33,046 nucleotides of DNA from contig JALTZY010000367.1 in assembly GCA_027045905.1 (NCBI GenBank), forward strand, positions 1-33,046, written 5' to 3'. Positions 12,496 to 30,667 of the stretch are shown here, one piece after another. Position 1 is the stretch's first letter; every line of letters starts with the position of its first letter. The stretch comes from Paracoccaceae bacterium. Lineage in GTDB: Bacteria > Pseudomonadota > Alphaproteobacteria > Rhodobacterales > Rhodobacteraceae. The notes beneath the pieces were generated by a model, which worked only from the letters and a program-made list of their open reading frames with translations, did no database searches and was not told the origin of the DNA. Both the position numbers and the translations under genes were made by a program.

Positions 12496-12741
12496 CTACT
12501 CGCCCAACTCTTCGGTCGGCGATGCTTCCACCGCCTCGTCGCGAAGCCGGTGCAGATGGGCGATGAAGTAACGCATATGGGCATTGTCCACGGTGCGGTG
12601 CGCTTCGGCCTTCCAGGCATCATAGGCGCTGGCATAGTCGGGAAATATTCCGACGATATGAATGTCATCGACATTGCGAAACACGTTATGCGCCGGATCC
12701 ACGAGTTCGCCGCCGAAAACAAGGTGCAGGCGTTGGGTCAT
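12496..12741 (-). CDS. DUF4170 family protein
   Basis: 81 aa MTQRLHLVFGGELVDPAHNVFRNVDDIHIVGIFPDYASAYDAWKAEAHRTVDNAHMRYFIAHLHRL, next to waaA/lpxK as expected. Confidence 0.72.
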   Translation of the reverse strand: MTQRLHLVFGGELVDPAHNVFRNVDDIHIVGIFPDYASAYDAWKAEAHRTVDNAHMRYFIAHLHRLRDEAVEASPTEELGE

Positions 12742-12848: not shown

Positions 12849-13103
12849 TCAGCTCACCCCATGCAGATACACCAGGCTGAACGCCGGCGCGCCATGCTGG
12901 TAGATGCGCACCGGTGCTCCGCCCATGGAGGTATCCCGGGCGCTGAACCCTGACGGATAGCCGCTAAAGAACGCGCGGCACATCTCGTCATGGACCCGCC
13001 GTTGATCGGCGATGCTCATCACCCACCGCCCCGGCGGATAATGCGCCTCGGTGCGGTGGATGAAATCCCAGGTCTCCGCATCGACGATTTTCGAATAATC
13101 CAC
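12849..13103 (-). pseudogene. Truncated alpha/beta-hydrolase (carboxylesterase type), N-terminal remnant
   Basis: 84 aa; ...GGAPVRIYQHGAPAFSLVYLHGVS-stop ends exactly at the HGGG oxyanion-hole region; no catalytic residues encoded downstream. Confidence 0.55.
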
Positions 13104-13205: not shown

Positions 13206-14627
13206 TCAAAGCCCGGTCTGCGCGCCGATATCCAGCGAAACGTGTTCTTCGGCCACCCCGGTATAGCCCAGCTTGTCGCGCATGGTCACCACGTCACCCA
13301 TGACGATCAGCGCCGGGCCCTTGAGATCGGCCGCCCGCGCTTTGCTCTCGATCGTCTCCAGAGTTGCCGATATCACCCTCTGGTTCTGCCGCGAGCCATT
13401 GTCGATCACCGCCACCGGAAGGTCAGGGCGTACGCCCTGCTCGAGCGCCGCGGCGGTGATCTGGCCGAGGCTGCCAAGGCCCATATAGACCACCACGGTC
13501 TGGCCCGGCCGGGCCAGTCGGGTCCAGTCATGGGCCAGCACGCCCGCAGCACCGTGAGCGGTGACAAACACCACCGATTGCGCGTGATCGCGGTGGGTGA
13601 GCGGGATGCCGGCGCAGGCGCCGCAGCCGGCGGCGGCGGTGATGCCGGGAATCACCTGCACCGGGATGCCGGCGCGGGCCACGTCCTCGAGTTCCTCGCC
13701 GCCGCGCCCGAAGATGAACGGATCGCCCCCCTTGAGCCGCAACACCCGGTTGCCTTCCTTTGCCAGCCTGATCATCAGCGCGGTGATCTCGTCCTGCTTC
13801 AGGGCATGGTAGCCGGGGCGCTTGCCGACATTGATCCGGCGCGCGTCGCGGCGCGAAAGCTCGAGGATGCCGGGGCCCACCAGCCGGTCATAAAGCACCA
13901 CGTCGGCATGCTGCATCAGTCTCAGCGCCTTGAAGGTCAGGAGGTCCGGGTCGCCAGGACCGGCGCCGACCAGCCAGACCTCGCCGGTGACGGGGCCTGC
14001 GGTCTCCAGGTCCGCTTCGATCTGCGCCACCGCATCGGCCTCGCGCCCGGCGAGGAAGGCATCGCCCGCGCGCCCCTCGATCATGTCTTCCCAGAAGCGC
14101 CGGCGCCCGCGACCGTCGCTGATCCGCTCGGCGATCTTCTGGCGAAACCGCGCGGCAAAGCTCGCCAGCCGCCCATAGCCGTCGGGCAGCATGGCCTCGA
14201 TCCGGGCGCGCAGGTTGCGGGCGATCACCGGGGCCGCGCCGCCTGTGGAAATGGCGATGGTGATCGGGTCGCGCTCGACCACGCTCGGGGTGATGAAATC
14301 GCAGTAGCGGCGCACATCGGCGACATTGACCAGCGCCCCGGCGGCGCGCCCGGCCTCGGCCAGAAGCTGGTCGCGCTCGGGCTCTTCGCTGGCGCCATAG
14401 GCGATGAAACAGCCCTCGAAATCCGCTGCAACCGGCACCCGGGCATGATGGGTCAGGTTCTCGTGGCCAAAGAGCGCGCGGACCTCCTCGCCCGGCTCCG
14501 GGTCGAAAAGCTCGACCAGCGCGCCGGCGGCAAGGGCGCGCTCGGCGCGGCGCGCGGCGACGGTTTCGCCCCCGTCCACGATCACGCGCTTGCCCTTGAT
14601 GTCGAGAAACAGCGGCAGATAATCCAT
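13206..14627 (-). CDS. cysG: Multifunctional siroheme synthase (precorrin-2 dehydrogenase/sirohydrochlorin ferrochelatase + uroporphyrinogen-III C-methyltransferase)
   Basis: MDYLPLFLDIKGKRVIVDGGETVAARRAE...; VWLVGAGPGDPDLLTFKALRLMQHADVVLYDRLV; GGDPFIFGRGGEE. Start set at ATG 14627 (ATG shares one base with the upstream stop). Confidence 0.93.
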   Translation of the reverse strand: MDYLPLFLDIKGKRVIVDGGETVAARRAERALAAGALVELFDPEPGEEVRALFGHENLTHHARVPVAADFEGCFIAYGASEEPERDQLLAEAGRAAGALVNVADVRRYCDFITPSVVERDPITIAISTGGAAPVIARNLRARIEAMLPDGYGRLASFAARFRQKIAERISDGRGRRRFWEDMIEGRAGDAFLAGREADAVAQIEADLETAGPVTGEVWLVGAGPGDPDLLTFKALRLMQHADVVLYDRLVGPGILELSRRDARRINVGKRPGYHALKQDEITALMIRLAKEGNRVLRLKGGDPFIFGRGGEELEDVARAGIPVQVIPGITAAAGCGACAGIPLTHRDHAQSVVFVTAHGAAGVLAHDWTRLARPGQTVVVYMGLGSLGQITAAALEQGVRPDLPVAVIDNGSRQNQRVISATLETIESKARAADLKGPALIVMGDVVTMRDKLGYTGVAEEHVSLDIGAQTGL

Positions 14628-14845
14628 CACGCCTGCTCCCCGCACTGTGTCTTGGCCCAGGCGAGCATCTCGCCGGCAATGGCGCTGGCCGTGTCGGCGT
14701 CCATCTCTACCTGGGTGATGCGCTTGCCCTCGCGCAGCACCAGGCGCAGCATCTTCATGCCGCTTTCATAGGTATATTCGCGCAGCTCGGCCTTGCGCGA
14801 ATAGGGCAGGGCGAAGGCGGCCAGGTCACGCAGGCCCTCAGTCAT
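14627..14845 (-). CDS. Small uncharacterised protein (72 aa)
   Basis: MTEGLRDLAAFALPYSRKAELREYTYESGMKMLRLVLREGKRITQVEMDADTASAIAGEMLAWAKTQCGEQA; overlaps the genes on both sides, so reads as part of an operon. Confidence 0.7.
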   Translation of the reverse strand: MTEGLRDLAAFALPYSRKAELREYTYESGMKMLRLVLREGKRITQVEMDADTASAIAGEMLAWAKTQCGEQA

Positions 14846-15062
14846 ATTTCAGCCCGCGGGTAAACGCGGCCTCCAGCAGCCATTCCCACTTGCGCGGGGT
14901 GTCCTTGTAATCGGGCTTGATGTCGAATTGCAGGTGCATGATGCCCGACTCCCCCGCATGGGCGACCAGCTTTTCCAGTTCGGCAAAGGAAGTCACTTCC
15001 GGGTGGCCGATGATCAGATCGCTCAACAGAGCATGATGGGCCTGGGTCGTTTCGTCAGCCAT
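14838..15062 (-). CDS. Small uncharacterised protein (74 aa)
   Basis: MADETTQAHHALLSDLIIGHPEVTSFAELEKLVAHAGESGIMHLQFDIKPDYKDTPRKWEWLLEAAFTRGLKYD; starts 1 nt after the TauD-like stop and overlaps the next gene. Confidence 0.7.
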   Translation of the reverse strand: MADETTQAHHALLSDLIIGHPEVTSFAELEKLVAHAGESGIMHLQFDIKPDYKDTPRKWEWLLEAAFTRGLKYD

Positions 15063-15063
15063 G

Positions 15064-15960
15064 TCAGGTTCCTTTCACACGGTTGCTGAACCGCACACGA
15101 TACATCACGCGCGGCGATTTTTCCACCTTTCCGGCGTCAAAGCCGGTGCGGTCATGCAGCACATTGTTGCACAGCACGCCCTGGCCGGCCCTGAACCTTA
15201 CCGAGATGGTCAGCGGATCGGGGTCTTCAAGGATGTGCCGGAGAAAAGCCACCGCCTCGCGGGTCAGCGGATCGTCGCGCCATTCGATGGAGCGGGTGCG
15301 GGCGGTGTAGCGCATCTGCAGCGCGCCGGTCTCCGGGTCGCCGTAAAAGACCGGGCCGACCGAAGCCGGGCGCAGGTTGCCGTCCGGCTCGCGGTTTTCG
15401 GGGATGGTCATGGCTTCGGGGTGCATCAGCGCTTCTATATAGGCGGGGTTTTCGTCCATCAGCCGGATGAAGGCGATGGTATGGTCGAGCAGGTGATTTT
15501 CGCCCCCGTCCTCGGCCGGGCGCGCGCAATGCAGCACCATGGCGCTGATCCGCTCTTCGGAGGCATTGTAATAGCCATCGGTATGCCAGCCCATCTTGCG
15601 CTTGCTGTATGGGATATAGCCGCGCTGGCTCGGGGCGTCTGTTTCCGTCAGCGCGACAATCCCCTGCTCGCCCGCGCTTCTGTGCCTCTCCGCGATACGA
15701 AGGCCGAAACGTTCGGCAAAAGCCCTAAGATCCGCGCGCAAATCCTCGCCCTGGGGAGCCTCGTAAAGCGTGAAATTTGATTCTCTTACCCGGCGAACGA
15801 TCTCGGAAATCTGCGAATCAGAGGGATTCGCAAGGCTGTCGAGCACCACGAATCCGAGCTTGCGGGCCGATTCGGAGGCGGAAATCCGTGCTGCGCGCCA
15901 ATCCTGATAAAAACGATAGGTTTCTGGTCGATTCCAGAAAAATCCCTTTTTTTCCGTCAT
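15064..15960 (-). CDS. TauD/TfdA-family Fe(II)/2-oxoglutarate-dependent dioxygenase
   Basis: 298 aa; HxD motif in MGWHTDGYYN, distal His in NNVLHDRTGF, arginine-rich RVMYRVRFSNR. Confidence 0.82.
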   Translation of the reverse strand: MTEKKGFFWNRPETYRFYQDWRAARISASESARKLGFVVLDSLANPSDSQISEIVRRVRESNFTLYEAPQGEDLRADLRAFAERFGLRIAERHRSAGEQGIVALTETDAPSQRGYIPYSKRKMGWHTDGYYNASEERISAMVLHCARPAEDGGENHLLDHTIAFIRLMDENPAYIEALMHPEAMTIPENREPDGNLRPASVGPVFYGDPETGALQMRYTARTRSIEWRDDPLTREAVAFLRHILEDPDPLTISVRFRAGQGVLCNNVLHDRTGFDAGKVEKSPRVMYRVRFSNRVKGT

Positions 15961-16005
15961 GTTATGAATCGCCCCCTGGACCGCAAGTAATTATGCACTC
16001 GCAGC

Positions 16006-16029
16006 AATATTGGAATCATTCCGAATATT
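16006..16029. promoter_or_regulatory. Nested inverted repeat AATATT-GGAAT-C-ATTCC-G-AATATT in the dsrA/TauD divergent region
   Basis: Inner perfect 5-bp dyad GGAAT-C-ATTCC flanked by AATATT on both sides (offset by one base); lies in the only intergenic control region of the two divergent operons. Confidence 0.5.
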
Positions 16030-16209
16030 TCGCCGCAGTTGATTTTTTCTCTTACATTCGTTTATCCAGATGTATAGATTATTTGGCAATGGCACTCTTT
16101 GCAGGGTGGTGAGGTTTGCGTTGTCGGTTCGTTAAGAATCACCGCATAGAATCCCCCCCGGCCGCAGGGTCTGAACAGTTTGCGCGAACACTCGTAAGGG
16201 AGGAACAAC

Positions 16210-17487
16210 ATGAAAGACGAATCGAAAGGCAAGCACCCGACGCCGATGCTTGACGAGCTCGAGGGCGGCAAGTGGCCGAGCTTCGTTACCGGTCTGAAGC
16301 GCCTGCGCGACGAGGGCACGGAAAACAACCAGAAGATGATGAACGACCTTCTGGGCCAGCTGAACCACTCCTACGAAAAGAAGCTCGGCTTCTGGAAGGG
16401 CGGCACGCTTTCGGTTCTCGGCTATGGCGGCGGGATCATCCCCCGTTTTTCCGAGGTGGCGGAACAGTTCCCGGAGTCGAAGGAATTCCATACCCTGCGG
16501 GTGATGCCGCCTGCGGGCTACCACTACACTTCGGACCTGCTGCGCAAGTTTGCGGATATCTGGGAGGAGCACGGCTCCGGCCTGATCGCCTTCCACGGCC
16601 AGTCGGGCGACATCATGTTCCAGGGCTGCTCCTCGGAGAATGCCCAGCCGGCCTTTGACGCGCTCAACGAGCTCGGCTTCGACCTCGGCGGTGCCGGCCC
16701 GGCCCTGCGCACGGCGATGTCCTGCGTCGGCCATGCCCGCTGCGAGCAGTCCTGCTACGACGAGGTGCAGGCCCACCGCCGCATCATCAACAAGTTTCTC
16801 GACGAGATGCACCGCCCGGCGCTGCCCTACAAGTTCAAGTTCAAGTTCTCGGGCTGCGCCAATGACTGCGTGAATGCCATCCACCGCGCCGACTTCGCGG
16901 TGATCGGCACCTGGCGCGACGACATCAAGATCGACCAGGAGAAGGTCAAGGAGCACATCGCCGAGGTCGGCCGCAAATACACCATCGACACGGTGGTCAA
17001 CATGTGCCCGACTCGCGCCATCAGCCTGCATGACGACGATACGCTGGAGATCGACAATTCGTCCTGCGTGCGCTGCATGCACTGCATCAACGTGATGACC
17101 AAGGCGCTGAGCCCGGGCGACGACCGCGGCGCCTCGATCATGATCGGCGGCAAGCGGGCGCTGAAGATCGGCGATCTGATGGGCATCATGATCAAGCCCT
17201 TCATCAAGCTCGAGACCGAAGAGGACTGGGAAGAGCTGGAGGATTTCGCCGAGACCTGCATCGAATTCTTTGCCGACAATGCTCTCGAGCACGAGCGGAT
17301 CGGCGAGACCATCGACCGCATCGGTCTTCCTGCCTTCCTGGAGGCAGTCGGGGTGGATGCGGACCCGAATATGGTCAATCACCCGCGCACCTCGTGCTAT
17401 GTGCGTACGGATGACTTCGATGAAGAGGCCCAGAAGTGGTTCGAGCGGCGCGCGCGTGAGACCGGAGCCAACGCTCACGCCGAGTAA
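16210..17487 (+). CDS. dsrA: Reverse-type dissimilatory sulfite reductase alpha subunit
   Basis: 425 aa; siroheme/4Fe-4S motifs CVGHARC and CANDC; ferredoxin-type SCVRCMHC; SD GGGAGG upstream of ATG. Confidence 0.96.
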   Translation: MKDESKGKHPTPMLDELEGGKWPSFVTGLKRLRDEGTENNQKMMNDLLGQLNHSYEKKLGFWKGGTLSVLGYGGGIIPRFSEVAEQFPESKEFHTLRVMPPAGYHYTSDLLRKFADIWEEHGSGLIAFHGQSGDIMFQGCSSENAQPAFDALNELGFDLGGAGPALRTAMSCVGHARCEQSCYDEVQAHRRIINKFLDEMHRPALPYKFKFKFSGCANDCVNAIHRADFAVIGTWRDDIKIDQEKVKEHIAEVGRKYTIDTVVNMCPTRAISLHDDDTLEIDNSSCVRCMHCINVMTKALSPGDDRGASIMIGGKRALKIGDLMGIMIKPFIKLETEEDWEELEDFAETCIEFFADNALEHERIGETIDRIGLPAFLEAVGVDADPNMVNHPRTSCYVRTDDFDEEAQKWFERRARETGANAHAE

Positions 17488-17559: not shown

Positions 17560-18642
17560 ATGAAAGACCAAGCCACCAAGCCCCGCATGCCCGATGAAGT
17601 CGGTGTCCCGGATCCGTTTCCCTTCATGCACCCGATCATGAAGAAGAATTACGGCAACTGGGCATGGCATGACCGCGAGCGCCCCGGCGTTCTGCACCAT
17701 GTGGCCAAGTCCGGCGACGAGATCTGGACCGTCCGCGCCGGCACCCAGCGCCAGATGGACGTGTTCACTATCCGCAAGCTCGCCGACATTGCCGATGAGT
17801 TCTCCGATGGCTATGTCCGCTTCACCACTCGCTCCAATATCGAGTTCCTCGTCGGCGACCATGACAAGGTGGCCCCGCTGATCGAGCGGCTCAATGAAGA
17901 GGGCTTCCCGGTCGGCGGCACCGGCGCTTCGGTGTCGATGATCAGCCACACCCAGGGCTGGCTGCATTGCGACATCCCCGGCACCGATGCTTCGGGCGTG
18001 GTCAAGAGCCTGATGGACGAGCTGTACAAGGATTTTGTCGAGGAAAAGATGCCCAACCGCGTGCGCATCACGACCTCGTGCTGTCAGATCAATTGCGGCG
18101 GCCAGGGCGACATCGCCGTGAATGTCCAGTACACCAAGCCGCCCAAGATCAATCACGACCTCGTGGCCAATGTCTGCGAGCGCCCGGCCGTCGTGGCCCG
18201 CTGCCCGGTGGCGGCGATCCGTCCCGCCATGGTCAACGGCAAGCCTTCGCTTGAGGTGGACGAAAAGAAATGCGTCTGCTGCGGCGCCTGTTATCCGCCC
18301 TGCCCGCCGATGCAGATCAACGGCGAGGAATCGACCAAGATCGCGATCTGGGTGGGCGGCAAGCATTCCAATGCCCGCTCCAAGCCGACCTTCCACAAGC
18401 TGGCGGTGGCCAACCTGCCCAACAACCCGCCACATTGGCCGGAGGTGCGCGAGGTGGTCCGCAAGATCGTCGATACCTACAAGAAGGACGCCAAGCACTG
18501 GGAGCGCATGGGCGAGTGGATCGAGCGCATCGGCTGGACCCGGTTCTTCGAGCTGACGGGTCTCGCCTTTACCAAGCACCACCTGGATACCTGGACCGGT
18601 GCGCGCAAGACCATGAACATGTCTGCTCACGTCCATTTCTGA
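17560..18642 (+). CDS. dsrB: Reverse-type dissimilatory sulfite reductase beta subunit
   Basis: 360 aa; TTSCCQINCGGQGDIAVN, CVCCGACYPPCPPM; directly follows dsrA. Confidence 0.96.
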   Translation: MKDQATKPRMPDEVGVPDPFPFMHPIMKKNYGNWAWHDRERPGVLHHVAKSGDEIWTVRAGTQRQMDVFTIRKLADIADEFSDGYVRFTTRSNIEFLVGDHDKVAPLIERLNEEGFPVGGTGASVSMISHTQGWLHCDIPGTDASGVVKSLMDELYKDFVEEKMPNRVRITTSCCQINCGGQGDIAVNVQYTKPPKINHDLVANVCERPAVVARCPVAAIRPAMVNGKPSLEVDEKKCVCCGACYPPCPPMQINGEESTKIAIWVGGKHSNARSKPTFHKLAVANLPNNPPHWPEVREVVRKIVDTYKKDAKHWERMGEWIERIGWTRFFELTGLAFTKHHLDTWTGARKTMNMSAHVHF

Positions 18643-18673: not shown

Positions 18674-19066
18674 GTGAAAATCGGTGTTCTCGTCAGCGAA
18701 GGCCCCTATACCCACCAGGCGGTGGATTCGGCCTATAACTTCGTGAAAGCGGCGCTTGCCGCCGGCCACGAAGTGCCGCGGGTGTTCTTCTACCATGATG
18801 GCGTCAACGTCTCGACGCGGCTTTCCGTGCCGCCGCAGGACGAGCGCAATATCCAGGAGAACTGGACCAGCCTTGCCAAGGAGCATGGCGTTGACCTGGT
18901 GGTCTGCATCGCTGCCGCCCAGCGGCGTGGCATCCTCGACAAGAATGAGGCCGAGCGCCAGGGAAAGGATGCGGATAACATCGCCGAGGGTTTTCGCATC
19001 TCGGGGCTCGGGCAACTGATCGAAATGGGGATCCAGACCGACCGTCTGGTGACCTTCGGGGACTAG
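18674..19066 (+). CDS. dsrE: Sulfurtransferase subunit DsrE
   Basis: MKIGVLVSEGPYTHQAVDSAYNFVKAALAAGHEVPRVFFYHDGV...; GTG start, SD AGGAGAG; conserved Cys in LVVCIAAAQRRG. Confidence 0.93.
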   Translation: MKIGVLVSEGPYTHQAVDSAYNFVKAALAAGHEVPRVFFYHDGVNVSTRLSVPPQDERNIQENWTSLAKEHGVDLVVCIAAAQRRGILDKNEAERQGKDADNIAEGFRISGLGQLIEMGIQTDRLVTFGD

Positions 19067-19075
19067 GAGGAAGAC

Positions 19076-19483
19076 ATGTCTGACGTGAAGAAATTCCTCT
19101 ATGTGAACCGAAAGGCGCCCTATGGTACCATCTATGCGCTGGAAAGCCTCGAGGTGGTGCTGATCGGTGCAGCTTTTGAGCAGGATGTGGCGCTGGCCTT
19201 CCTCGATGATGGCGTGTTTCAGTTGACCAAAAGCCAGGAAACCGACGGCATCGGGGTGAAGAACTTCTCGCCCACCTTCCGGGCGCTGGGCGATTACGAC
19301 GTGACCCGGCTCTATGTCGAGCGCGAAAGCCTTGAAGAGCGCGGCCTGACCGAGGACGACCTGCAGGAAATCATGTATGAGGACGAGGATGACGATTGGG
19401 CCGAAAAGCCCTCGATCCGCGTCATCAGCCGTGCCGAAATGGCCGACGTGATGGCCGAACAAGATGTCATCCTGAGCTTCTGA
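19076..19483 (+). CDS. dsrF: Sulfurtransferase subunit DsrF
   Basis: MSDVKKFLYVNRKAPYGTIYALESLEVVLIGAAFEQDVALAFLDDGVFQL; DsrEFH order. Confidence 0.93.
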   Translation: MSDVKKFLYVNRKAPYGTIYALESLEVVLIGAAFEQDVALAFLDDGVFQLTKSQETDGIGVKNFSPTFRALGDYDVTRLYVERESLEERGLTEDDLQEIMYEDEDDDWAEKPSIRVISRAEMADVMAEQDVILSF

Positions 19484-19492
19484 GGGGGAAAG

Positions 19493-19801
19493 ATGTCAAC
19501 GCTTCATACGGTAAACAAGTCTCCCTACATGACCCAGTCCCTAGTGTCGTGTCTCAACCACTGCAAGGATGGCGACGCGGTGCTGATGATCGAGGATGGC
19601 ATCTACGGCGGCCTCGCCGGCGGCCAGATGGCGCCCATTGTCGAGGAAATGGGGAAGAAGGTGTCGCTCTATGTGCTCATGCCCGACATGGCTGCGCGCG
19701 GGGTGGACAGCTCCCGCCTGCTTGAGGGTATCGAGGGCGTGGATTACACGGGGTTTGTGGAACTGGTCGCCAAACACGACCGCACACAAGCCTGGCTTTG
19801 A
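19493..19801 (+). CDS. dsrH: Sulfurtransferase subunit DsrH
   Basis: MSTLHTVNKSPYMTQSLVSCLNHCKDGDAVLMIEDGIYGGL; follows dsrF. Confidence 0.92.
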   Translation: MSTLHTVNKSPYMTQSLVSCLNHCKDGDAVLMIEDGIYGGLAGGQMAPIVEEMGKKVSLYVLMPDMAARGVDSSRLLEGIEGVDYTGFVELVAKHDRTQAWL

Positions 19802-19807
19802 AATTGC

Positions 19808-19826
19808 CGCCCTGGATGGCAGGGCG
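19808..19826 (+). other. Hairpin in dsrH-dsrC gap
   Basis: CGCCCTG-GATGG-CAGGGCG, perfect 7-bp stem, 5-nt loop, immediately 5' of the dsrC SD TAGGAGGAAC. Confidence 0.6.
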
Positions 19827-19844
19827 CCTATAGGAGGAACGAAA

Positions 19845-20177
19845 ATGGAATACACTGTCGATGGCAAGACTGTCCCCGCTGACGAAGAGGGCTACATCAT
19901 CAATCTGAGCGACTGGTCGCCGGAGCTGGCCGAGGTGATCGCCAAGTCCGAAGATATCGAAATGGACGAAGAGCGCTGGGAGGTGGTGAACTTCCTGCGT
20001 GATTATTACGACGAATACCAGATCGCCCCGGCGGTTCGCGTGCTGATCAAGGCGCTGAAAAAGTCCATGGGCCCGGAAAAGGGTAACAACAAGTACATGT
20101 ACGAACTGTTCCCCTATGGTCCGGCCAAGCAGGCCTGCAAGATCGCGGGCCTTCCCAAGCCGACCGGCTGCGTCTGA
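19845..20177 (+). CDS. dsrC: DsrC sulfur carrier protein
   Basis: MEYTVDGKTVPADEEGYIINLSDWSPELAEVIAKSEDIEMDEERWEVVNFLRDYYDEYQ...; C-terminal arm ACKIAGLPKPTGCV with both Cys spaced by 10 residues. Track ORF (19596) is too long; SD GGAGG precedes ATG 19845. Confidence 0.96.
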   Translation: MEYTVDGKTVPADEEGYIINLSDWSPELAEVIAKSEDIEMDEERWEVVNFLRDYYDEYQIAPAVRVLIKALKKSMGPEKGNNKYMYELFPYGPAKQACKIAGLPKPTGCV

Positions 20178-20194
20178 TACGATAAGAAGCCCTG

Positions 20195-20221
20195 CCCCGG
20201 TGCCTGGAGGAGGTGCCGGGG
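20195..20221 (+). other. Strong hairpin 17 nt after dsrC stop
   Basis: CCCCGGTGCCT-GGAGG-AGGTGCCGGGG: 11-bp RNA stem (two G-U pairs), 5-nt loop, no T-tract. Confidence 0.75.
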
Positions 20222-20238
20222 TATCGAGAGCCCCAAGA

Positions 20239-20261
20239 GCCTGAAAATGACAACTTCAGGC
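20239..20261 (+). other. Second hairpin upstream of dsrM RBS
   Basis: GCCTGAA-AATGACAAC-TTCAGGC, perfect 7-bp stem, 9-nt loop. Confidence 0.5.
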
Positions 20262-20282
20262 CAGGGAACGGGAGGAGTCCGC

Positions 20283-21005
20283 GTGCTGGGCACGATTTAC
20301 GCATTGCTGTTTTATGTGGCGACCTTGTTGCTGGTTGCGGGTCTGGTTCGCAAGATCTGGGTTTACGCGCGCACCCCGGCGCCACTTAAGATTCCGACCA
20401 CGCCTGCCCCGACCACGCTGGGCGGTGTCGTCCTGCGCATATTCATGGAAGTGGTGTTCTTCCAGAGCCTGTTCAAGTCGAACAAGTGGATCTGGGCGCT
20501 GGGCTGGATGTTTCATATGTCCATGTGGCTGGTCCTGCTGCGCCATGTGCGCTACTTCCAGGAAAATATCTGGTGGATCGTCGAACTGGCGCAGCCCTTT
20601 GGTACCTATGCGGGCTTTACTATGCTGATCGGTCTTGCCGGCCTGCTGGCCCGCCGCTTTCTCGTCAACCGGGTGCGGTATATTTCGGCGCCGTCCGATT
20701 ACCTGATGCTGGTCTTGCTGCTACTGATCGTGGTCACCGGCCTTTCCATGCGCTGGGTCGCGCATACGGACATCGTCATGGTCAAGAGTTACATGACCGG
20801 CCTCCTGCGTTTCCGCATCGGAGAATTGCCCGGTGATTTCAACCTGCTTGCGCATTTGGCGCTGGTTGCGGTGCTGATGATAGTCTTCCCGATTTCCAAA
20901 CTCCTGCATGTGCCGGGCGTCTTCTTCAGCCCGTCGCGCAACCAGGTAGACAATGCGCGTGAGAAGCGCCATCTGGCCCCCTGGGCCGCCGAGCTGGAGA
21001 AGTAG
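20283..21005 (+). CDS. dsrM: DsrM, cytochrome b-like membrane subunit of DsrMKJOP
   Basis: Membrane protein MLGTIYALLFYVATLLLVAGLVRKIW...; GTG 20283 preceded by GGGAGGAG preferred over ATG 20247, which lies in a hairpin loop. Confidence 0.9.
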   Translation: MLGTIYALLFYVATLLLVAGLVRKIWVYARTPAPLKIPTTPAPTTLGGVVLRIFMEVVFFQSLFKSNKWIWALGWMFHMSMWLVLLRHVRYFQENIWWIVELAQPFGTYAGFTMLIGLAGLLARRFLVNRVRYISAPSDYLMLVLLLLIVVTGLSMRWVAHTDIVMVKSYMTGLLRFRIGELPGDFNLLAHLALVAVLMIVFPISKLLHVPGVFFSPSRNQVDNAREKRHLAPWAAELEK

Positions 21006-21007
21006 GC

Positions 21008-22549
21008 ATGGCTGACGGCGACAAGGCAGTACCGGAGCGGGAATTCCCGCTGAAGCTTCCCGAATTCAAATGCGGGGCGATGGAGGGGCTGGAGCCTTTC
21101 CGCGCCGCTCCCGAGCACAACGAGGCGCTGGGTTTCCCCGGCGAGCTTGTGCCCGACTGGAAGGAAAAGGCCATTGCCTATATGGGCGAACTGGCCAGGA
21201 AGAACCGCGCTTTTCAGGTCTACCTGGACATGTGCGTCAAATGCGGCGCCTGCACCGACAAGTGTCACTATTACCTCGGCACCGGCGACCCCAATAACAT
21301 GCCGGTCGCCCGCCAGGATCTGCTGCGCTCGGTCTATCGCCGCTATTACACCTTCGCGGGCAAGTATTTCCCGTGGCTGGTGGGCGCGCGGGATCTGACC
21401 GAAGACGTGCTCAAGGAGTGGTACAGCTACTACCACCAGTGCTCCGAGTGCCGCCGCTGTTCGGTCTTCTGCCCCTACGGCATCGACACCGCCGAGATCA
21501 CCATGGCCGCGCGCGATATTCTCGATCATGTCGGTATCGGCATGAAATATTCCAACGAGATCATCGGCAAGGTGCACAAGGTCGGCAACAATCTCGGCCT
21601 GCCGGGCAAGGCGCTGAAGGCCACCCTCGAGGATCTCGAAGAGGATATCGAGGACGATACTGGCGTCTCGGTCCGACTGCCGCTGGACGAAAAGGGCGCC
21701 GATATCCTGCTGGTCACGCCCTCGGCCGATTTCTTCGCCGAGCCGCATATCGACGGGCTGATCGGCTATGCCAAGGTCTTCCACGAGACCGGTGCTTCCT
21801 GGACGCTCAGCTCCTATGCCTCCGAGGCGGCGAATTTCGGCCTGTTCATCGGCTCCTACGAGAACATGCGCGAAGTGGCGCTGCGTATCCGCAAGGCGGC
21901 CGAGGATCTGGGTGTAAAGCGGATCGTCTTCGGTGAATGCGGTCACGCCTGGCGGGTGGCCTACAGTTTCCTCAACACGCTGGCGGGGCCGTTCGACTTC
22001 CTCGATCAGAATTATCCGATTCCGCAGCATATTCTCGAATACACTTGGGACGCGATCCAGAAGGGTAAGCTGAAATTCGACAAATCGAAAAACGATCATT
22101 ACAGGCTGACCTATCACGACAGCTGTAATGTGGCGCGCGCCAGCCGCATGGGTGACGAACCGGGCGGCCAGTTCGAGATCCCGCGCAACGTGATCAAGGC
22201 CGTCTGCAACCATTTCTACGACATGCCCGAGGAGACCATCCGCGAAGCCACGCTTTGCTGTGGCGGCGGCGGCGGGCTGCTGACGGATGACCTGATGGAC
22301 CTGCGCATCAAGGGCGCAAGCCCTCGCATGACCGCGCTCCAGCAGGTGACGGAAGACCACGGCGTGACCCATATGGCGGCGATCTGCGCCATCTGCAAGA
22401 CACAGTTCTCCAAGGTCATGCCCAAATACGGCTACGAAATGGATTCGATCGTATCGGTACACCAGCTGGTGTCCAACGCGATCATCCTCACGGGCCAGGA
22501 AACGGAAGAAGATGACGCCGACGGCGCGAAAGCGGAGGAACAGCCATGA
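21008..22549 (+). CDS. dsrK: DsrK, HdrD-like iron-sulfur protein
   Basis: 513 aa; CVKCGACTDKCHYYLG, CSECRRCSVFCPYG, CCGGGGGLL. Confidence 0.94.
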   Translation: MADGDKAVPEREFPLKLPEFKCGAMEGLEPFRAAPEHNEALGFPGELVPDWKEKAIAYMGELARKNRAFQVYLDMCVKCGACTDKCHYYLGTGDPNNMPVARQDLLRSVYRRYYTFAGKYFPWLVGARDLTEDVLKEWYSYYHQCSECRRCSVFCPYGIDTAEITMAARDILDHVGIGMKYSNEIIGKVHKVGNNLGLPGKALKATLEDLEEDIEDDTGVSVRLPLDEKGADILLVTPSADFFAEPHIDGLIGYAKVFHETGASWTLSSYASEAANFGLFIGSYENMREVALRIRKAAEDLGVKRIVFGECGHAWRVAYSFLNTLAGPFDFLDQNYPIPQHILEYTWDAIQKGKLKFDKSKNDHYRLTYHDSCNVARASRMGDEPGGQFEIPRNVIKAVCNHFYDMPEETIREATLCCGGGGGLLTDDLMDLRIKGASPRMTALQQVTEDHGVTHMAAICAICKTQFSKVMPKYGYEMDSIVSVHQLVSNAIILTGQETEEDDADGAKAEEQP

Positions 22550-24495
22550 ACGACATGACCCCCAAGGAAAAGCCCACATTTCGGCGTTTCAGGGAAGGTG
22601 AGCGCGCCAGCGACTGGGACCTGGAGGAAAAGATCTTCACCCAGGACAAGTCCTACAAGTGCCCGACTTACATCGCCAAGACCCCGCCGTGCCAGGGCTC
22701 CTGCCCTTCCGGTCACGAGATCCGCGGCTGGCTGGCCATCGCCCGCGGCATGGACAAGCCCGCCGATCCCGACATGCCGTGGCAGGAATACGCCTTCCAG
22801 CGCATGGTTTCGGCCAACCCGTTCCCGGCCACCATGGGCCGGGTCTGCCCCGCCCCCTGCGAGGCCGGCTGCAACCGCAACGAGGTGGATGATTATGTCG
22901 GCATCAATGGCGTCGAGCAATATGTCGGCGACTGGGCCAATGACAATGACGTGAAGATGCCCGAGCCCGGTGCGCCGACCGGCCGCAAGGTCGCGGTGAT
23001 CGGCGGCGGCCCCGCCGGCCTGTCGGCTGCCTACTTCCTGCGCCTCGACGGGCACGAAGTGACCCTCTTCGAGGCCAACGAAGAGCTCGGCGGCATGATG
23101 CGCTACGGTATTCCCGGCTACCGGACGCCGCGCGAGATGCTGGACAAGGAAATCGGCCGCATCATCGACATGGGCGTGGACGTGCACACCAATACCCACG
23201 TCGGTACGGACGTATCACTGGAAGAGATCGATAAGAGCTTCGATGCCGTTTTCTGGGCGCTGGGCGCGCAGAAGGGCCGCCCGCTGCCCATCGAAGGCTG
23301 GGAAGGCACTGAGAACTGCATCGAGGGGATCGAGTTCCTCGACGCCTTCAACAAGGGCTGGGTCTTCGGCACCGCCAAGAAGGTCGTCGTGGTCGGCGGC
23401 GGCGATACCTCCATCGACGTGGCTTCGGTGGCCCGCCGCCTCGGTCACATCACCGAGGTCAAGCCGGCCGAGCACGCTTCCGGTTCGGTGATCGACTTCA
23501 CCGCTTCCGATGCTGCCGGCGCGCTGGTGCGCGAGGGCATTCAGGCTACGCTGACCTCGCTGTTCCCGGTCGAGGAGATGACCGCCGCCGAGCACGAGCG
23601 CGAGGATGCGAAGCGCGAGGGCGTCGAGATCAGAGGCGGGGTCATGCCGCTTGAAGTGCTCAAGGATGAGAACGGCCGCGCCCGTGCCCTGAAGATGTGC
23701 GAATGCACGATGAAGGGCAACGTGCCGGAGCCGATCGAAGGTACCGAATTCGAGCTCGAATGCGACATCATCATCGCCGCCATCGGCCAGTATGGCGACC
23801 TCGAAGGGGTTGAGGAGCTCGACAATGGCCGCGGCTTCATCGACATCGACGGCACCTATGCGGTCAAGGGCCGGGCCAAGCACTTTGCCGGCGGCGATAT
23901 CGTCAAGCCCCACCTGCTGACCACCGCGATCGGCCATGGCCGTATCGCCGCCGAAGCTATCACCGATTATTTCGACGATGGCGAGGTGGAGAAGCGTCCG
24001 AAGGTGGACGTGCATCATTTCAACCTGCTCGAAGAGCTGCGCCGCCGGGGAAAGGAACCTTCGGAATACGACCATACCCAGACCCGGGGCACCAGCGCAT
24101 CTGACTTCGCCATTCACAATTTTGAAGACCGCTCCGACAGCCAGATCATCCCGCATACGGAGCTGTTCAAGGGGCATTTCGAATATGTCCCGCGCGAGGT
24201 GCGCCAGGAGAAGCATATCGAAGGTGACGAGGTGATCGGCAATTTCGAGGAGCGGATCATCGGCTACACCGAGGAGCAGGCGAAGAAGGAAGGCGAACGT
24301 TGCATGTCCTGCGGCATGTGCTTCGAATGCGACAATTGCGTGATCTTCTGCCCGCAGGACGCGGTGCATCGGGTGCCGAAAAAGGACCGTGCCGTCGGGC
24401 GTTATGTCTTTACCGACTATACCCGCTGCATCGGTTGCCATATCTGCTCCGACGTTTGCCCGACGGGCTATATCAAGATGGGTCTTGGGGAGTAA
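22546..24495 (+). CDS. dsrL: DsrL, NAD(P)H:acceptor oxidoreductase (GltD-like flavoprotein with C-terminal ferredoxin domain)
   Basis: 649 aa; VAVIGGGPAGLSAAYFL, VVVVGGGDTSIDVA; C-terminal CMSCGMCFECDNCVIFCP and CIGCHICSDVCP; ATGA overlap with dsrK. Confidence 0.94.
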   Translation: MNDMTPKEKPTFRRFREGERASDWDLEEKIFTQDKSYKCPTYIAKTPPCQGSCPSGHEIRGWLAIARGMDKPADPDMPWQEYAFQRMVSANPFPATMGRVCPAPCEAGCNRNEVDDYVGINGVEQYVGDWANDNDVKMPEPGAPTGRKVAVIGGGPAGLSAAYFLRLDGHEVTLFEANEELGGMMRYGIPGYRTPREMLDKEIGRIIDMGVDVHTNTHVGTDVSLEEIDKSFDAVFWALGAQKGRPLPIEGWEGTENCIEGIEFLDAFNKGWVFGTAKKVVVVGGGDTSIDVASVARRLGHITEVKPAEHASGSVIDFTASDAAGALVREGIQATLTSLFPVEEMTAAEHEREDAKREGVEIRGGVMPLEVLKDENGRARALKMCECTMKGNVPEPIEGTEFELECDIIIAAIGQYGDLEGVEELDNGRGFIDIDGTYAVKGRAKHFAGGDIVKPHLLTTAIGHGRIAAEAITDYFDDGEVEKRPKVDVHHFNLLEELRRRGKEPSEYDHTQTRGTSASDFAIHNFEDRSDSQIIPHTELFKGHFEYVPREVRQEKHIEGDEVIGNFEERIIGYTEEQAKKEGERCMSCGMCFECDNCVIFCPQDAVHRVPKKDRAVGRYVFTDYTRCIGCHICSDVCPTGYIKMGLGE

Positions 24496-24497
24496 CC

Positions 24498-24965
24498 ATG
24501 CGGCTGATCCTGGCATTCTTGGTCCTCCTGGGCCTGTCGTTGCCGCTCCATGCGGATGACCACGAGGGCTTGCCCGCAGTGCCCAAGGCCACGGGTGAGC
24601 CCCATCCCGAGGGCAACGAATACTGGCGCAAGAATCACATGACGCTGCTGCTCCATGATCGCGACCTGACCCTGCGCGAGGGCGAGCGCGAGGATATCCG
24701 GGCTTCCCTGGAGTCATGTTTCGACTGCCATACGGTGAAGGATGAGGCGGGCGAAGCGGTCACGATCGAGGACGAGCGCCATTTCTGCCGGGTATGCCAC
24801 GATTATGCGGCGGTGAAGCCCGATTGCTTCACATGCCATCGCTCCACCCCGTCGGACAATGTGGCGAACCGCCTGATGGCCACGCCCGAAGAGCCCAATT
24901 CCATCGCCGCCTATCTCGAGCGCCTGAAGGCTCTGGAAGCCGATGAATCGGAGGCCAGCCAATGA
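24498..24965 (+). CDS. dsrJ: DsrJ, triheme periplasmic cytochrome c
   Basis: Signal peptide [19 protein letters not shown]; three CxxCH motifs CFDCH, CRVCH, CFTCH. Track start 24300 lies inside dsrL; ATG 24498 used. Confidence 0.93.
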
Positions 24966-25711
24966 CCAACCGTGCAGAAATGACCCGCCGCGACATTCTG
25001 AAATCCGGCGCGGCGGTGGCCACTCTCACGCTCGCGCCGGGCGTGACGCTGATGACTTTTGGCGGTTCCGAGGCCAATGCCGCCAGGGCCGATGCCGGCA
25101 AACGCTGGGGGCTTCTGATCGATGCCAACAAATGCGCCGCCGACTGTTCCGCCTGCGTTACTGCCTGCAAGACCGAAAACGGCTGGGGCAATGACGGCGG
25201 CGAGCATTCCGGCCCCGAGACCGAGAGCGCCTGGATCCGCAAGGTCACGCTCAGGGACAAGCATACCGGCCGCCAGGTCAGCGCGCCGGTGATGTGCCAG
25301 CATTGCGAGAGCCCGCCCTGCGTCGATGTCTGCCCTACCGGTGCCTCCATGCAGCGGGTGGACGGGATCGTGCTGGTGGACAAGCATATCTGCATCGGCT
25401 GCCGCTATTGCATGATGGCCTGCCCGTTCAAGGCGCGCTCCTTCGTCCACAGCGACGTGCCCGAGCAGAGCGTGAATGCGCCCCGCGGCAAGGGCGTGGT
25501 CGAAAGCTGTACCCTCTGCGTGCACCGGGTGGACAGGGGCCGTATCCCCGCCTGCGTCGAAGCCTGCGAGGCTTCCGGTAACTCGGCCATCCTGTTTGGC
25601 GACCTGAAAGACCCGGAAAGCCCCATTTCCAGGGCGTTGAAGCAATACTCCTCCATCGCCCTGCGTGCCGACCTCGAGCTCAATCCGGGCGTCCGCTACC
25701 AGAATCTCTGA
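24962..25711 (+). CDS. dsrO: DsrO, Tat-exported periplasmic ferredoxin-like protein
   Basis: [20 protein letters not shown] twin-arginine signal; [46 protein letters not shown] overlap with dsrJ. Confidence 0.94.
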
Positions 25712-25723
25712 CGGGGAAAGACC

Positions 25724-26911
25724 ATGGAACGCACGATCTACCGCACCATCAAGGCGACCCCCGCCTCCTGGGGCGTGGCCATTTTGCTGGCCGCCATTAT
25801 CGGCGCCGCCGGGCTTGCTGTGCTCACCATCGAGCATTACGGCCACATCATCACCGGCATGAACAACCAGATCGTCTGGGGCCTGCCGCATGTCTTCGCG
25901 ATCTTCCTGATCGTCGCCGCGTCGGGGGTGCTCAATGTGGCCTCGATCTCGTCGGTCTTCGGCAAGAAGGCCTACAAGCCCATGGCCCGCTTCTCGGCGC
26001 TTCTGTCGATCACGGTGCTGCTGGGCGGGCTCGCCATCCTGGTGCTGGACCTCGGCCGGCCTGACCGGCTGATCGTCGCCATGACCAAGTATAACTTCAC
26101 CTCGATCTTTGCCTGGAACATGATTCTGTACAATGGCTTCTTTGCCATTGTCGGGGCCTATCTGGTGGTGCAGATGACCCAGGGGCTTTCGCCTCGGGTG
26201 CACAAGGCCGCCGGCATCGCCGCCTTTACCTGGCGGCTGATCCTGACCACGGGAACCGGCTCGATCTTCGGCTGGCTGGTGGCGCGTCCGGGCTATGACG
26301 CGGCAATCATGGGCCCTCTGTTCATCGCCATGAGCTTTGCCTTCGGGCTTGCCCTGTTCATCCTCGTGACTCTCGCCCTGTTCAGGCTCGACGGGCGCAT
26401 CTTTGGCGACAAGCTGATGCTGCGGCTAGGCAATCTTCTCGGGGTCTTTGTTGCAGTGGTACTGTATTTCACCATCGTTCAGCACCTGACCGCGCTTTAT
26501 GCCGAGGAACATGCGGGTATCGAGCGCTTCATCCTGCTCGACGGCGGGGCTTATACCACGCTGTTCTGGCTGGTGCAGGTGGTGCTGGGCGCGCTGGTGC
26601 CGATGGCGCTGGTTTTCCTGCGCCCGTCGCGAGCATCGACGATCCTCGCGTCGTTCCTGGTGATCCTTGGTGGGCTCGCCCAGATCTATGTGATCGTGAT
26701 CGGCGGGCAGGCCTATCCGCTGCAGATCTTCCCCGGCTACGAGGTGCTTGAGGGTTTCAACGAAGGCGTGGTCAACAGCTACTCGCCCACGATCTACGAG
26801 CTTGCCCTTGGCCTTGGCGGGGTGGCGCTCGCGCTGCTGGCGGCTGGCTTGGGGGCGAAGATCCTGCGGGTTCTGCCCACCAACCTGTCGGATGCGAATT
26901 ACCCCGACTGA
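25724..26911 (+). CDS. dsrP: DsrP, NrfD-like integral membrane subunit
   Basis: 395 aa polytopic membrane protein, follows dsrO. Confidence 0.93.
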   Translation: MERTIYRTIKATPASWGVAILLAAIIGAAGLAVLTIEHYGHIITGMNNQIVWGLPHVFAIFLIVAASGVLNVASISSVFGKKAYKPMARFSALLSITVLLGGLAILVLDLGRPDRLIVAMTKYNFTSIFAWNMILYNGFFAIVGAYLVVQMTQGLSPRVHKAAGIAAFTWRLILTTGTGSIFGWLVARPGYDAAIMGPLFIAMSFAFGLALFILVTLALFRLDGRIFGDKLMLRLGNLLGVFVAVVLYFTIVQHLTALYAEEHAGIERFILLDGGAYTTLFWLVQVVLGALVPMALVFLRPSRASTILASFLVILGGLAQIYVIVIGGQAYPLQIFPGYEVLEGFNEGVVNSYSPTIYELALGLGGVALALLAAGLGAKILRVLPTNLSDANYPD

Positions 26912-26947
26912 GCCGGTTGCGGCACGCACCGATTGCATCTTCTGATC

Positions 26948-26986
26948 CGATATGGGCTATACCTGTCACGGGAATGGCCCATATCG
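26948..26986. promoter_or_regulatory. Perfect 10-bp inverted repeat CGATATGGGC-(19)-GCCCATATCG
   Basis: Lies between dsrP stop (26911) and the preferred ATG (27007) of the next gene; no T-tract. Confidence 0.55.
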
Positions 26987-27006
26987 TCATCAATCCGGGA
27001 GCGCGC

Positions 27007-28005
27007 ATGAAACAACACCCGTTTTCCAAATTCGTCGCCATCCTCGGGCGCGGCAAGACCAAGCAGCGCCACCTGACGCTGGAGGAAAGCCGAGAGGCGA
27101 TGGAGATGCTGCTCTGCGGCGAGGCCGAGCCCGAACAGATCGGCGCTTTTCTCATGCTGCTCAGGCTCAAGGAAGAAGCGCCCGAGGAGATCGCCGGTTT
27201 TGCCATGGGTACCCGGGCGACTTTCAAGCGCCCCGCTGACCTGCCCGCTGTCGATCTCGACTGGTCGTCCTATGCCGGCAAGCGGGTGCAGCTGCCGTGG
27301 TATATCCTGAGCGCGCTGGCGCTGGTGGGGGCCGGCTACAGGGTGCTGATGCACGGCACCGAGGGCCACACGCCCGGCCGTGTCTATACCCGCGAGGTGC
27401 TCGAAAGCCTCGGCGTGCCGATTGCCGACGGCTTCGAGGCGGCGGCGGGGCACATCCGCGCCTCGGGTTTTGCCTATATGCCGCTGGAAGTACTGAGCCC
27501 GCCGCTCAAGCACATGATCAACCTGCGCCCGATCCTCGGCCTGCGCAGCCCGGTGCACAGCTTCACCCGGATGCTGAACCCTTTTGACGCGCCCTCGGTG
27601 GTGGTGGGGATCTTTCATCGCGGATTCATGGATATCCATGCAGGTGCTGCGCGGATCATGGAGATGGAGAGCTTCTCGGTGTTTCGCGGCGATGGCGGCG
27701 AGGCCGAGCGCCGGCCCAACAAGCCGACGCAGGTGTGGAACAGCCTCGGGGCAGAAGAGCCCACAGTCGAGACCTGGCCCGCCCTGCTCGAGGGCCATGC
27801 GCCCAGGGATGAGGAAATGGATATCGCCCGCCTTGCCCGCGTCTGGGAGGGCGAGGCGGATGAATACGGCGAAGCGGCGGTGACCGGCTCCATGGCCATC
27901 GCGCTCAGGACCATGGGCAAGGCCGACAGCATGAAAGAAGCTGATGCAAAGGCGCGCGAGATATGGGCCGCCCGCGACCGCGGCCGCATCCCGGCCAGCG
28001 CCTGA
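27007..28005 (+). CDS. TrpD2/YbiB-like glycosyl/phosphoribosyltransferase family protein (anthranilate phosphoribosyltransferase-related)
   Basis: MKQHPFSKFVAILGRGKTKQRHLTLEESREAMEMLLCGEAEPEQIGAFLMLLRLKEEAPEEIAGF...VLMHGTEGHTPGRVYT; GGGAG upstream of ATG 27007. Track start 26917 crosses the inverted repeat. Confidence 0.8.
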   Translation: MKQHPFSKFVAILGRGKTKQRHLTLEESREAMEMLLCGEAEPEQIGAFLMLLRLKEEAPEEIAGFAMGTRATFKRPADLPAVDLDWSSYAGKRVQLPWYILSALALVGAGYRVLMHGTEGHTPGRVYTREVLESLGVPIADGFEAAAGHIRASGFAYMPLEVLSPPLKHMINLRPILGLRSPVHSFTRMLNPFDAPSVVVGIFHRGFMDIHAGAARIMEMESFSVFRGDGGEAERRPNKPTQVWNSLGAEEPTVETWPALLEGHAPRDEEMDIARLARVWEGEADEYGEAAVTGSMAIALRTMGKADSMKEADAKAREIWAARDRGRIPASA

Positions 28006-29369
28006 TGCAGGCGCCGCGCTTCCTCATATCCGCCGCGCATAAAAGCTCGGGCAAGACGGTGATCGCCACCGGGCTGGCGGCGGCCCTTGCCGCGCGCGGC
28101 GTGGCGCTGGGGGCATTCAAGAAGGGGCCGGACTACATAGACCCGATGTGGCTCTCCGCCGCCTCGGGGCAGGCGTGTTACAATCTCGACTTCAACACCA
28201 TGGCGGGCGGCGAACTCGCTGCGTTCTTCGCCTCGCGCGCCTCGGGCGAGCTGAACCTAATCGAGGCAAACAAGGGCCTCTATGACGGCATGGCGCTGGA
28301 TGGGAGCGACTCGAATGCCGCCCTGGCGCGGCTCCTGTCCCTGCCCGTGGTGCTGGTGATCGACTGCAACGGAATGACCCGTGGCATCGCTCCTCTGCTG
28401 ACGGGCTATCAGGCCTTTGACCCTCAGGTGCATATCGCCGGAGTGATACTGAACAAGGTCGGCGGCCCGCGCCACGAAGAGAAGTTGCGCGCGGCGGTGG
28501 CCGAATATACCGACATCCCGGTAATCGGCGCCGTCTATCGTAACCCGGCGCTGGAGATCGGCGAGCGGCATCTGGGTCTGACCACGCCTGCCGAAAGCGG
28601 CGAACTCGCAGCGCGGATCGCCCGGATCGGCGAGATCGTCGGCGCCTCGGTGGAACTCGACGCGCTGCTTGCCATCGCCGCCAGCGCACCGCCACTTGCC
28701 GCGCCGCCTGCCGCTCCCGCAGTGCCCGCGCCGGACCTGCGCATTGCCATTGCCCGTGACCAGGCCTTTGGCTTCTACTACCCGGACGACCTCGAAGCCT
28801 TTGCCGCCGCCGGGGCCGAGCTTGTACCGTTCAGCACGTTCACCGACCCGGCCCTGCCGCCGGATATCGACGGGCTGTTCATCGGCGGTGGTTTCCCGGA
28901 GATGTTCATCCCGGAACTTGAGGCAAACAGCACCCTGCGCGCCGATATCCGCGCCCGGATCGAGAGCGGCCTGCCTGCTTATGCGGAATGCGGCGGGCTC
29001 ATGTATCTGTGCCGCTCGATCCGCCACGGCGATGTGGCGGGCGATATGGTCGGGGTGGTTGCGGCAGATGCGGTGATGCACCCACGCCCGCAGGGCAGGG
29101 GCTATGCGGCTTATCACGACATGCCAAGCCACCCCTGGGGCACGGGCGTGGCGCAGAAGGCGCATGAATTCCACTATGCCCGGCTGGAAAGTACCGACCC
29201 CGGCCTGACATTTGCCCGCAAGATCACCCGTGGTCACGGGATCGACGGCGCCCATGACGGGGTGCTGGTCCACAATGCTCTGGCCGGCTTCATCCACCTG
29301 CGCAGCAGCCGCGGACTGCCCTGGGTCAGCGATTTCGTCGCTTTCCTGCGCCGTTGCAAGGCTGCCTGA
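28005..29369 (+). CDS. dsrN: DsrN, CbiA/CobB-like (siro)cobyrinate a,c-diamide synthase
   Basis: FLISAAHKSSGKTVIATGLAAALAARGVALGAFKKGPDYIDPMWLSAASG; glutaminase part GLFIGGGFPEMF, YAECGGLMYL; TGATG overlap with previous gene. Confidence 0.92.
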   Translation: MQAPRFLISAAHKSSGKTVIATGLAAALAARGVALGAFKKGPDYIDPMWLSAASGQACYNLDFNTMAGGELAAFFASRASGELNLIEANKGLYDGMALDGSDSNAALARLLSLPVVLVIDCNGMTRGIAPLLTGYQAFDPQVHIAGVILNKVGGPRHEEKLRAAVAEYTDIPVIGAVYRNPALEIGERHLGLTTPAESGELAARIARIGEIVGASVELDALLAIAASAPPLAAPPAAPAVPAPDLRIAIARDQAFGFYYPDDLEAFAAAGAELVPFSTFTDPALPPDIDGLFIGGGFPEMFIPELEANSTLRADIRARIESGLPAYAECGGLMYLCRSIRHGDVAGDMVGVVAADAVMHPRPQGRGYAAYHDMPSHPWGTGVAQKAHEFHYARLESTDPGLTFARKITRGHGIDGAHDGVLVHNALAGFIHLRSSRGLPWVSDFVAFLRRCKAA

Positions 29370-29426: not shown

Positions 29427-29651
29427 TCAGGTCTTCTTGATCTCGAACGTATAGACGTCGCCCGCAGTTTCGGACTTCAGCAGTTCGTTGCCGGTCTGGT
29501 TGCAGAATGCGGCGAAGTCGGCCACCGAGCCGGGATCGGTCGAGAGCACTTCGAGCACCTGACCAGCCTGCATCCCCTTCAGGGCCTTCTTGGCTTTGAG
29601 GATCGGCAGCGGGCAATTCAGCCCCTTCGCGTCGAGAGTTTGGTCGGCCAT
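29427..29651 (-). CDS. tusA: TusA-family sulfur carrier
   Basis: 74 aa; LDAKGLNCPLPILKAKKAL CPxP motif. Confidence 0.93.
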   Translation of the reverse strand: MADQTLDAKGLNCPLPILKAKKALKGMQAGQVLEVLSTDPGSVADFAAFCNQTGNELLKSETAGDVYTFEIKKT

Positions 29652-29678
29652 ATGTGTGTTACCTTCTGTTGGTCGGGG

Positions 29679-30340: not shown

Positions 30341-30667
30341 ATGGAAATGACGCATGACGAAATGAGCGAAACGGCCGAGAAGGCCAGCGAGCTTTTGCGG
30401 GTGCTTTCGAATCAGAAGAGGCTGCTGATTCTGTGCAAATTGGGAGAGGGCGAGCACTCGGTTCATCAGTTGCAGGAAGCGACCGGGCTGGGCCAATCGA
30501 CGGTTAGCCAGCAGCTGGCCAAGCTGCGCGGCGAGCGCCTGGTAAAGGCGCGGCGCGAGGCGCAGTCAGTCTATTATTCGCTTTCATCCAGAGAGGTGGA
30601 GGCGCTTATCGAAACCCTCTACGGTCTCTACTGCCCCCGCAAATGCAGCGATAACGAAGAGAACTGA
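30341..30667 (+). CDS. ArsR-family transcriptional regulator, SqrR/BigR/YgaV-like
   Basis: 108 aa winged helix; LSNQKRLLILCKL...GLGQSTVSQQLAKLRGERLVKARREAQSVYYSL...LYGLYCPRKC; Cys32, Cys97, Cys101. Confidence 0.87.
   Translation: MEMTHDEMSETAEKASELLRVLSNQKRLLILCKLGEGEHSVHQLQEATGLGQSTVSQQLAKLRGERLVKARREAQSVYYSLSSREVEALIETLYGLYCPRKCSDNEEN

Follow-up and report, generated by a model that had tools for sequence, protein, structure and literature searches.

The reverse dissimilatory sulfite reductase (reverse Dsr) pathway very likely has an overlooked component: a gene set that is led by an Fe(II)/2-oxoglutarate-dependent dioxygenase and placed beside dsrA. The window, by which we mean the whole analysed stretch of 33,046 nucleotides (contig JALTZY010000367.1 of a Paracoccaceae bacterium), carries this set as a four-gene operon, in which the dioxygenase gene is followed by genes for two small proteins of 74 and 72 residues and by cysG. 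In our reading, to which we assign a probability of roughly 0.4, this operon is an accessory unit dedicated to reverse Dsr, with the dioxygenase performing an O2-conditional hydroxylation of a Dsr-linked target.

The divergent operon and the dsr cluster

The four open reading frames lie tightly packed on the minus strand, divergent from dsrA. The first, at 15064–15960, encodes a 298-residue member of the TauD/TfdA superfamily (PF02668, 91.9 bits against a gathering score of 27). A gap of 1 nt separates it from the gene of the 74-residue protein (s74; 14838–15062), which in turn overlaps by 8 nt the gene of the 72-residue protein (14627–14845), a member of DUF6967 (PF22295, 86.4 bits against a gathering score of 27). 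The last junction, a TGATG overlap, leads into cysG (13206–14627), whose 473-residue product starts with MDYLPLF (an alternative in-frame GTG at 14645 is less likely) and is a full-length trifunctional siroheme synthase, scoring 571.6 bits with NF007922 against a cut-off of 400. The coordinates, strand and tight packing given for the four genes in the original prediction are confirmed, and the plus-strand gene dsrA begins at 16210. On the 3' side of cysG, a small DUF4170 gene and an 84-residue open reading frame (12496–12741 and 12849–13103) recur near the operon in two other loci, L064 and L066.

On the plus strand, dsrA (16210–17487; TIGR02064, 553 bits) and dsrB (17560–18642; TIGR02066, 518.8 bits) are followed by dsrEFHCMKLJOP (18674–26911) and by dsrN (27963–29369), a siroheme amidase-type gene of the CbiA/GATase kind (PF07685, PF13500 and PF01656). 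With dsrEFH and dsrL, the mark of the oxidative type, accompanying dsrAB, the cluster is complete and of the reverse type. Its dsrABEFHCMKLJOP and dsrN stand in the same order as in the dsrABEFHCMKLJOPNRS cluster of Allochromatium vinosum; however, that published cluster begins at dsrA and, unlike the window, does not include the divergent genes for the dioxygenase and the 74- and 72-residue proteins (PMC3368242).

Several further genes accompany the cluster. Between dsrP and dsrN lies a gene of the TrpD-like glycosyl transferase family (26917–28005; PRK09071, 377 bits), which is found in the dsr cluster in eight of the nine loci of relatives that cover the region and is missing in L059. A 175-residue protein without a Pfam match (29640–30167) is kept 3' of dsrN in relatives, and a SoeA/PhsA-like molybdoenzyme gene follows at 30760, beyond the dsr cluster. 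Three other loci hold a tandem pair of different dsrL copies inside one dsr cluster (L061, 4319–8240; L062, 11308–15276; L071, 1–3312), with about 56% and 74–80% identity to the DsrL of the window.

The operon and dsrA have a control region of 249 bp in common (15961–16209). Conservation in alphaproteobacterial loci picks out within it a promoter-like element with an inverted repeat, CTTACATTCGTTTATCCAGATGTATAGAT, directed towards dsrA (16051–16079, plus strand). The element occurs once in the window. Most of 29 alphaproteobacterial loci have it about as far from dsrA, and 16 loci match at least 20 of 26 positions, the maximum among shuffled sequences being 19. An ArsR-type regulator whose nearest model is BigR (84.7 bits, below the cut-off) is encoded at 30341–30667, between the dsr cluster and the molybdoenzyme gene at 30760, and is a candidate regulator of this element.

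Co-occurrence with dsrA

The distribution of the gene set was followed in samples of related genomes, in which counts are not independent draws; the pattern covers 8 of the 141 genera of the family sample and two classes overall. Among 393 genomes of the family of the window, with dsrA called above the model cut-off and the dioxygenase at E ≤ 1e-30, dsrA was present in 11, and the dioxygenase and DUF6967 were found in exactly those 11 and in none of the 382 dsr-less genomes. The 74-residue protein was likewise found in all 11, and of 357 genomes sampled across the class five contain it (the genome of the window and four others), all with dsrA.

The same holds, with few exceptions, in Chromatiales, the order of Thiohalocapsa. 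Of 127 genomes, 116 have dsrA (115 plus one in which dsrA is cut by a contig end), and these include 112 with the dioxygenase and 114 with the 74-residue protein, whose gene nearly always adjoins dsrA in these 114. The 11 genomes without dsrA contain the dioxygenase once and the 74-residue protein not at all. One apparent dsr-less carrier of the dioxygenase, G437, was rejected, since its dsrA runs off the contig end; the sole remaining one, G483, is either a real exception or an incomplete genome. At least two dsr-containing Chromatiales (G504 and G521) have the 74-residue gene and lack the dioxygenase, so that the two are separable. In a mixed test set of 15 genomes, chosen mostly with no dsr seen near the dioxygenase, dsrA was present in all 15. 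In-frame stops in many homologues of the 74-residue protein were considered as signs of broken genes and rejected: in L159, L160 and L166 the alignments overrun the natural C-terminal stop.

The link of the dioxygenase, 74- and 72-residue genes to reverse Dsr is therefore real, and broader than the original prediction could see. That prediction had placed the module with reverse Dsr, which the co-occurrence counts and the conserved placement at dsrA bear out, and had named its presence in genomes without dsr as an argument against the link; the family sample holds no such case.

Conserved placement and the variable cysG

The order of the first three genes and their divergence from dsrA are kept in all ten other dsr-containing relatives of the family sample, a conservation far beyond chance; a lack of conserved neighbours there would have spoken for a chance association. 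A scan of named genomes gave at least 587 stretches with relatives of the dioxygenase. Among the best 80 of these, the dioxygenase gene is divergent from dsrA in all 36 alphaproteobacterial loci and in about half of the gammaproteobacterial ones. It is adjoined by the 74-residue gene in 52 of the 58 divergent loci in this best 80, with the 72-residue gene present in 31 and cysG in 26; in the other 22 the 74-residue gene is never beside the dioxygenase, although some of these loci end at contig ends.

In Chromatiales with an unlinked dioxygenase, it is the dioxygenase that has moved, the 74-residue gene still adjoining dsrA. In a tree built by a quick method, with several weakly supported forks, the unlinked dioxygenases branch off late from within the linked family, roughly as one group. 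Several Chromatiales have both linked and unlinked copies, and Thiothrix fructosivorans has a second, unlinked copy on plasmid pTfr153 (L182, 7983–8888) in addition to the dsr-linked chromosomal one (L101). This plasmid copy was the one unlinked homologue of the dioxygenase in the plasmid collection, which held no homologue of the 74-residue protein.

The fourth gene behaves differently. Directly next in the operon in seven of the ten relatives (the three exceptions being species of a single genus), cysG belongs to the operon in 24 of the 36 alphaproteobacterial loci among the best 80 of at least 587, six of the 36 ending too close to show it, and is absent from it in 16 of the 17 linked gammaproteobacterial loci of the same set. 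With cysG the least constant member, the idea of a siroheme operon as the core is rejected; the core is the dioxygenase plus the 74-residue protein, and the operon with cysG at its end is mainly alphaproteobacterial.

This variability bears on the possibility that the dioxygenase acts on the siroheme (siroamide) of DsrAB, tailoring or repairing this cofactor, with the cysG of the operon providing the substrate. The frequent position of cysG directly next to the other genes in the family and in Alphaproteobacteria, and the presence of the siroheme amidase-type dsrN in the same cluster, are in line with such a function. However, the gammaproteobacterial operons that do without cysG encode the same dioxygenase family, and phototrophs living anaerobically require the cofactor in the absence of O2, which makes cofactor tailoring unlikely.

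The dioxygenase and its substrate

Residues His126, Asp128, His269, Arg284 and Arg288 of the dioxygenase are invariant in an alignment of its 11 closest homologues. The H-x-D...H triad for Fe(II) and the arginine for 2-oxoglutarate (Arg284) align with those of E. coli TauD, and the enzyme keeps a complete Fe(II)/2-oxoglutarate site. A second invariant arginine aligns with Arg270 of E. coli TauD, the sulfonate-binding residue of that enzyme; a substrate with an anionic group is plausible on account of this alignment. The catalytic residues and the motifs of the pocket region, common to both groups of the enzyme, point to one old substrate.

Beyond the H-x-D...H and R-x-x-x-R elements, the enzyme is not closely related to TauD proper: hhalign gives 18% identity and a probability of 17.8%, and, unlike TauD, the dioxygenase co-occurs with dsr and comes without a taurine transporter, tau and ssu genes being absent from the inspected loci. 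Among proteins of solved structure, those closest to it in sequence are TmpA and gamma-butyrobetaine dioxygenase; these two, with trimethyllysine dioxygenase, are the best sequence matches across solved structures and NCBIfam. Compared with these the dioxygenase is shorter, the match is confined to the catalytic core, and the NCBIfam equivalog scores are far below the cut-offs (37.0 against 268.3, 32.2 against 400 and 21.3 against 414.8 bits).

The original prediction had included the release of sulfite from an organosulfonate, and the enzyme might indeed desulfonate an organosulfonate, or open a sulfate ester, in the manner of TauD or AtsK, with the sulfite entering the pathway at its Soe-type or Apr/Sat end. 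Membership in the TauD/TfdA superfamily, the invariant arginine at the Arg270 position and the SoeA/PhsA-like gene at 30760 are compatible with this function. Yet desulfonation would bypass DsrAB, and for that reason leaves the near-perfect co-occurrence with dsrA, and the placement beside it, unexplained. In addition, neither linked nor unlinked loci that were inspected contain a sulfonate transporter or sulfonate-catabolic gene, the closest solved structures are TmpA and gamma-butyrobetaine dioxygenase rather than taurine dioxygenase, and the second arginine is common in the superfamily and not specific for sulfonates. The near one-to-one pairing with dsr and this kinship leave sulfite release unsupported so far and, in our view, improbable; we favour an oxygen-conditional hydroxylation serving Dsr over sulfonate scavenging.

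The small proteins and the gammaproteobacterial operon

The 74-residue protein represents a new family, without a match in Pfam, NCBIfam, PDB sequences or PDB folds, and its homologues adjoin dsrA in both Alpha- and Gammaproteobacteria. The family is marked by the motif D-x-K-P-x-x-x-D-T-P-x-x-W-x-x-x-L-E-x-x-F, and Ser14, Leu29, Asp47, Pro50, Asp54, Pro56, Trp59, Glu64 and Phe67 are invariant in 24 diverse members; the AlphaFold model has a pLDDT of 81.4. The 72-residue DUF6967 protein is predicted to fold into a four-stranded sheet with a helix (pLDDT 93.8). Its best fold matches, PUR-alpha repeats and proteins of the PC4 kind, have a TM of about 0.6 and a Foldseek probability of 0.8–0.98 but weak E-values of 0.4–1.5.

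In Gammaproteobacteria the operon runs from the dioxygenase, where it is linked, through the 74-residue protein to a protein of about 235 residues without a Pfam match, a Cas6-like protein, a paralogue of DsrC and sometimes a rhodanese. The genes for the protein of about 235 residues, the Cas6-like protein and the DsrC paralogue are seen divergent from dsrA in L095 (11089–13808), L161 (5456–7288) and L158 (6430–8567). The Cas6-like protein passes the curated cut-off of TIGR02807, and the DsrC paralogue, whose sequence ends in RKGGY, lacks the two C-terminal cysteines. We note that NCBI's model would call the Cas6-like protein a CRISPR protein.

These partners raise the possibility of a regulatory device, in which the dioxygenase senses oxygen or 2-oxoglutarate and acts jointly with a partner that binds nucleic acid to set the expression of dsr or the fate of its mRNA. 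The modelled resemblance of the 72-residue protein to single-strand-binding folds of the PUR-alpha and PC4 kind would fit, as would the Cas6-like protein and the cysteine-less DsrC of the gammaproteobacterial operon. Nevertheless, the fold matches are weak, and TauD-type enzymes mostly act on small molecules; we regard such a device as quite unlikely. A more elaborate form, very unlikely in our estimate, would be a module dedicated to reverse Dsr that exerts control in response to oxygen and occurs in nearly all sulfur-oxidising Proteobacteria, with the dioxygenase and the 74-residue protein as its core and with nucleic-acid-binding partners that differ by class (the PUR-like DUF6967 protein in Alphaproteobacteria, the Cas6-type RNA endonuclease homologue and the cysteine-less DsrC in Gammaproteobacteria), through which dsr mRNA or protein would be coupled to the status of oxygen and carbon.

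The last alternative, that the genes are fortuitous neighbours carried along when the dsr cluster is transferred horizontally, accords with the patchy occurrence of dsr in the family (11 of 393 genomes) and is rejected as scarcely credible on the co-occurrence counts, which hold even for dioxygenase genes that lie away from dsr and extend, with strong conservation, over two classes with different gene neighbourhoods.

Proposed role of the operon

In the accessory operon that we propose, CysG would raise the supply of siroheme, the cofactor of DsrAB, and this part of the original prediction is plausible. The dioxygenase would consume O2 and 2-oxoglutarate in hydroxylating a target linked to Dsr, either a protein or a small carrier with an anionic group, the 74-residue protein may act as its partner or adaptor, and the 72-residue protein would be an added component, possibly binding nucleic acid. 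Purple sulfur bacteria that oxidise sulfur anaerobically (Thiohalocapsa, Chromatium-type) also carry the dioxygenase. Since the enzyme depends on O2, turnover by Dsr must in general be possible without the reaction it catalyses, and we therefore term the role conditional: the hydroxylation would be needed when the sulfur oxidiser meets oxygen, and not for anaerobic turnover. The best fit is an oxygen-conditional role by which the Dsr system is adapted, protected or controlled.

As to known systems, a siroheme synthesis gene likewise stands beside dsr in clusters with dsrV and dsrW, DsrW being a homologue of uroporphyrinogen-III methyltransferase (PMC6018796). The window differs from these in that its gene encodes a full CysG, shares an operon with the dioxygenase gene and points away from dsrA. 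A large study of Dsr synteny (PMC10504309) mentions no dioxygenase, and the literature search found no mention of DUF6967. Nor is the operon described in the literature searched on dsr with TauD or dioxygenases, on the genes upstream of A. vinosum dsrA, or on cysG with dsrN (subscription papers and preprints lay outside its scope). Two TauD homologues of a Solemya symbiont have been read as taurine synthesis (PMC4287430). We caution that the dsr-associated TauD homologues described here should not be taken as evidence of taurine metabolism.

Reverse Dsr ranks among the main routes by which sulfur is oxidised in sediments, symbionts and phototrophs, and the genes that make it up have been treated as a complete set. 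A dioxygenase and a new family of small proteins strictly co-inherited with it at dsrA would mean that an oxygen-dependent step, or a control by oxygen, has been overlooked. The genes may serve as additional markers of oxidative-type Dsr in metagenomes, and they are direct targets for knock-out and biochemistry.
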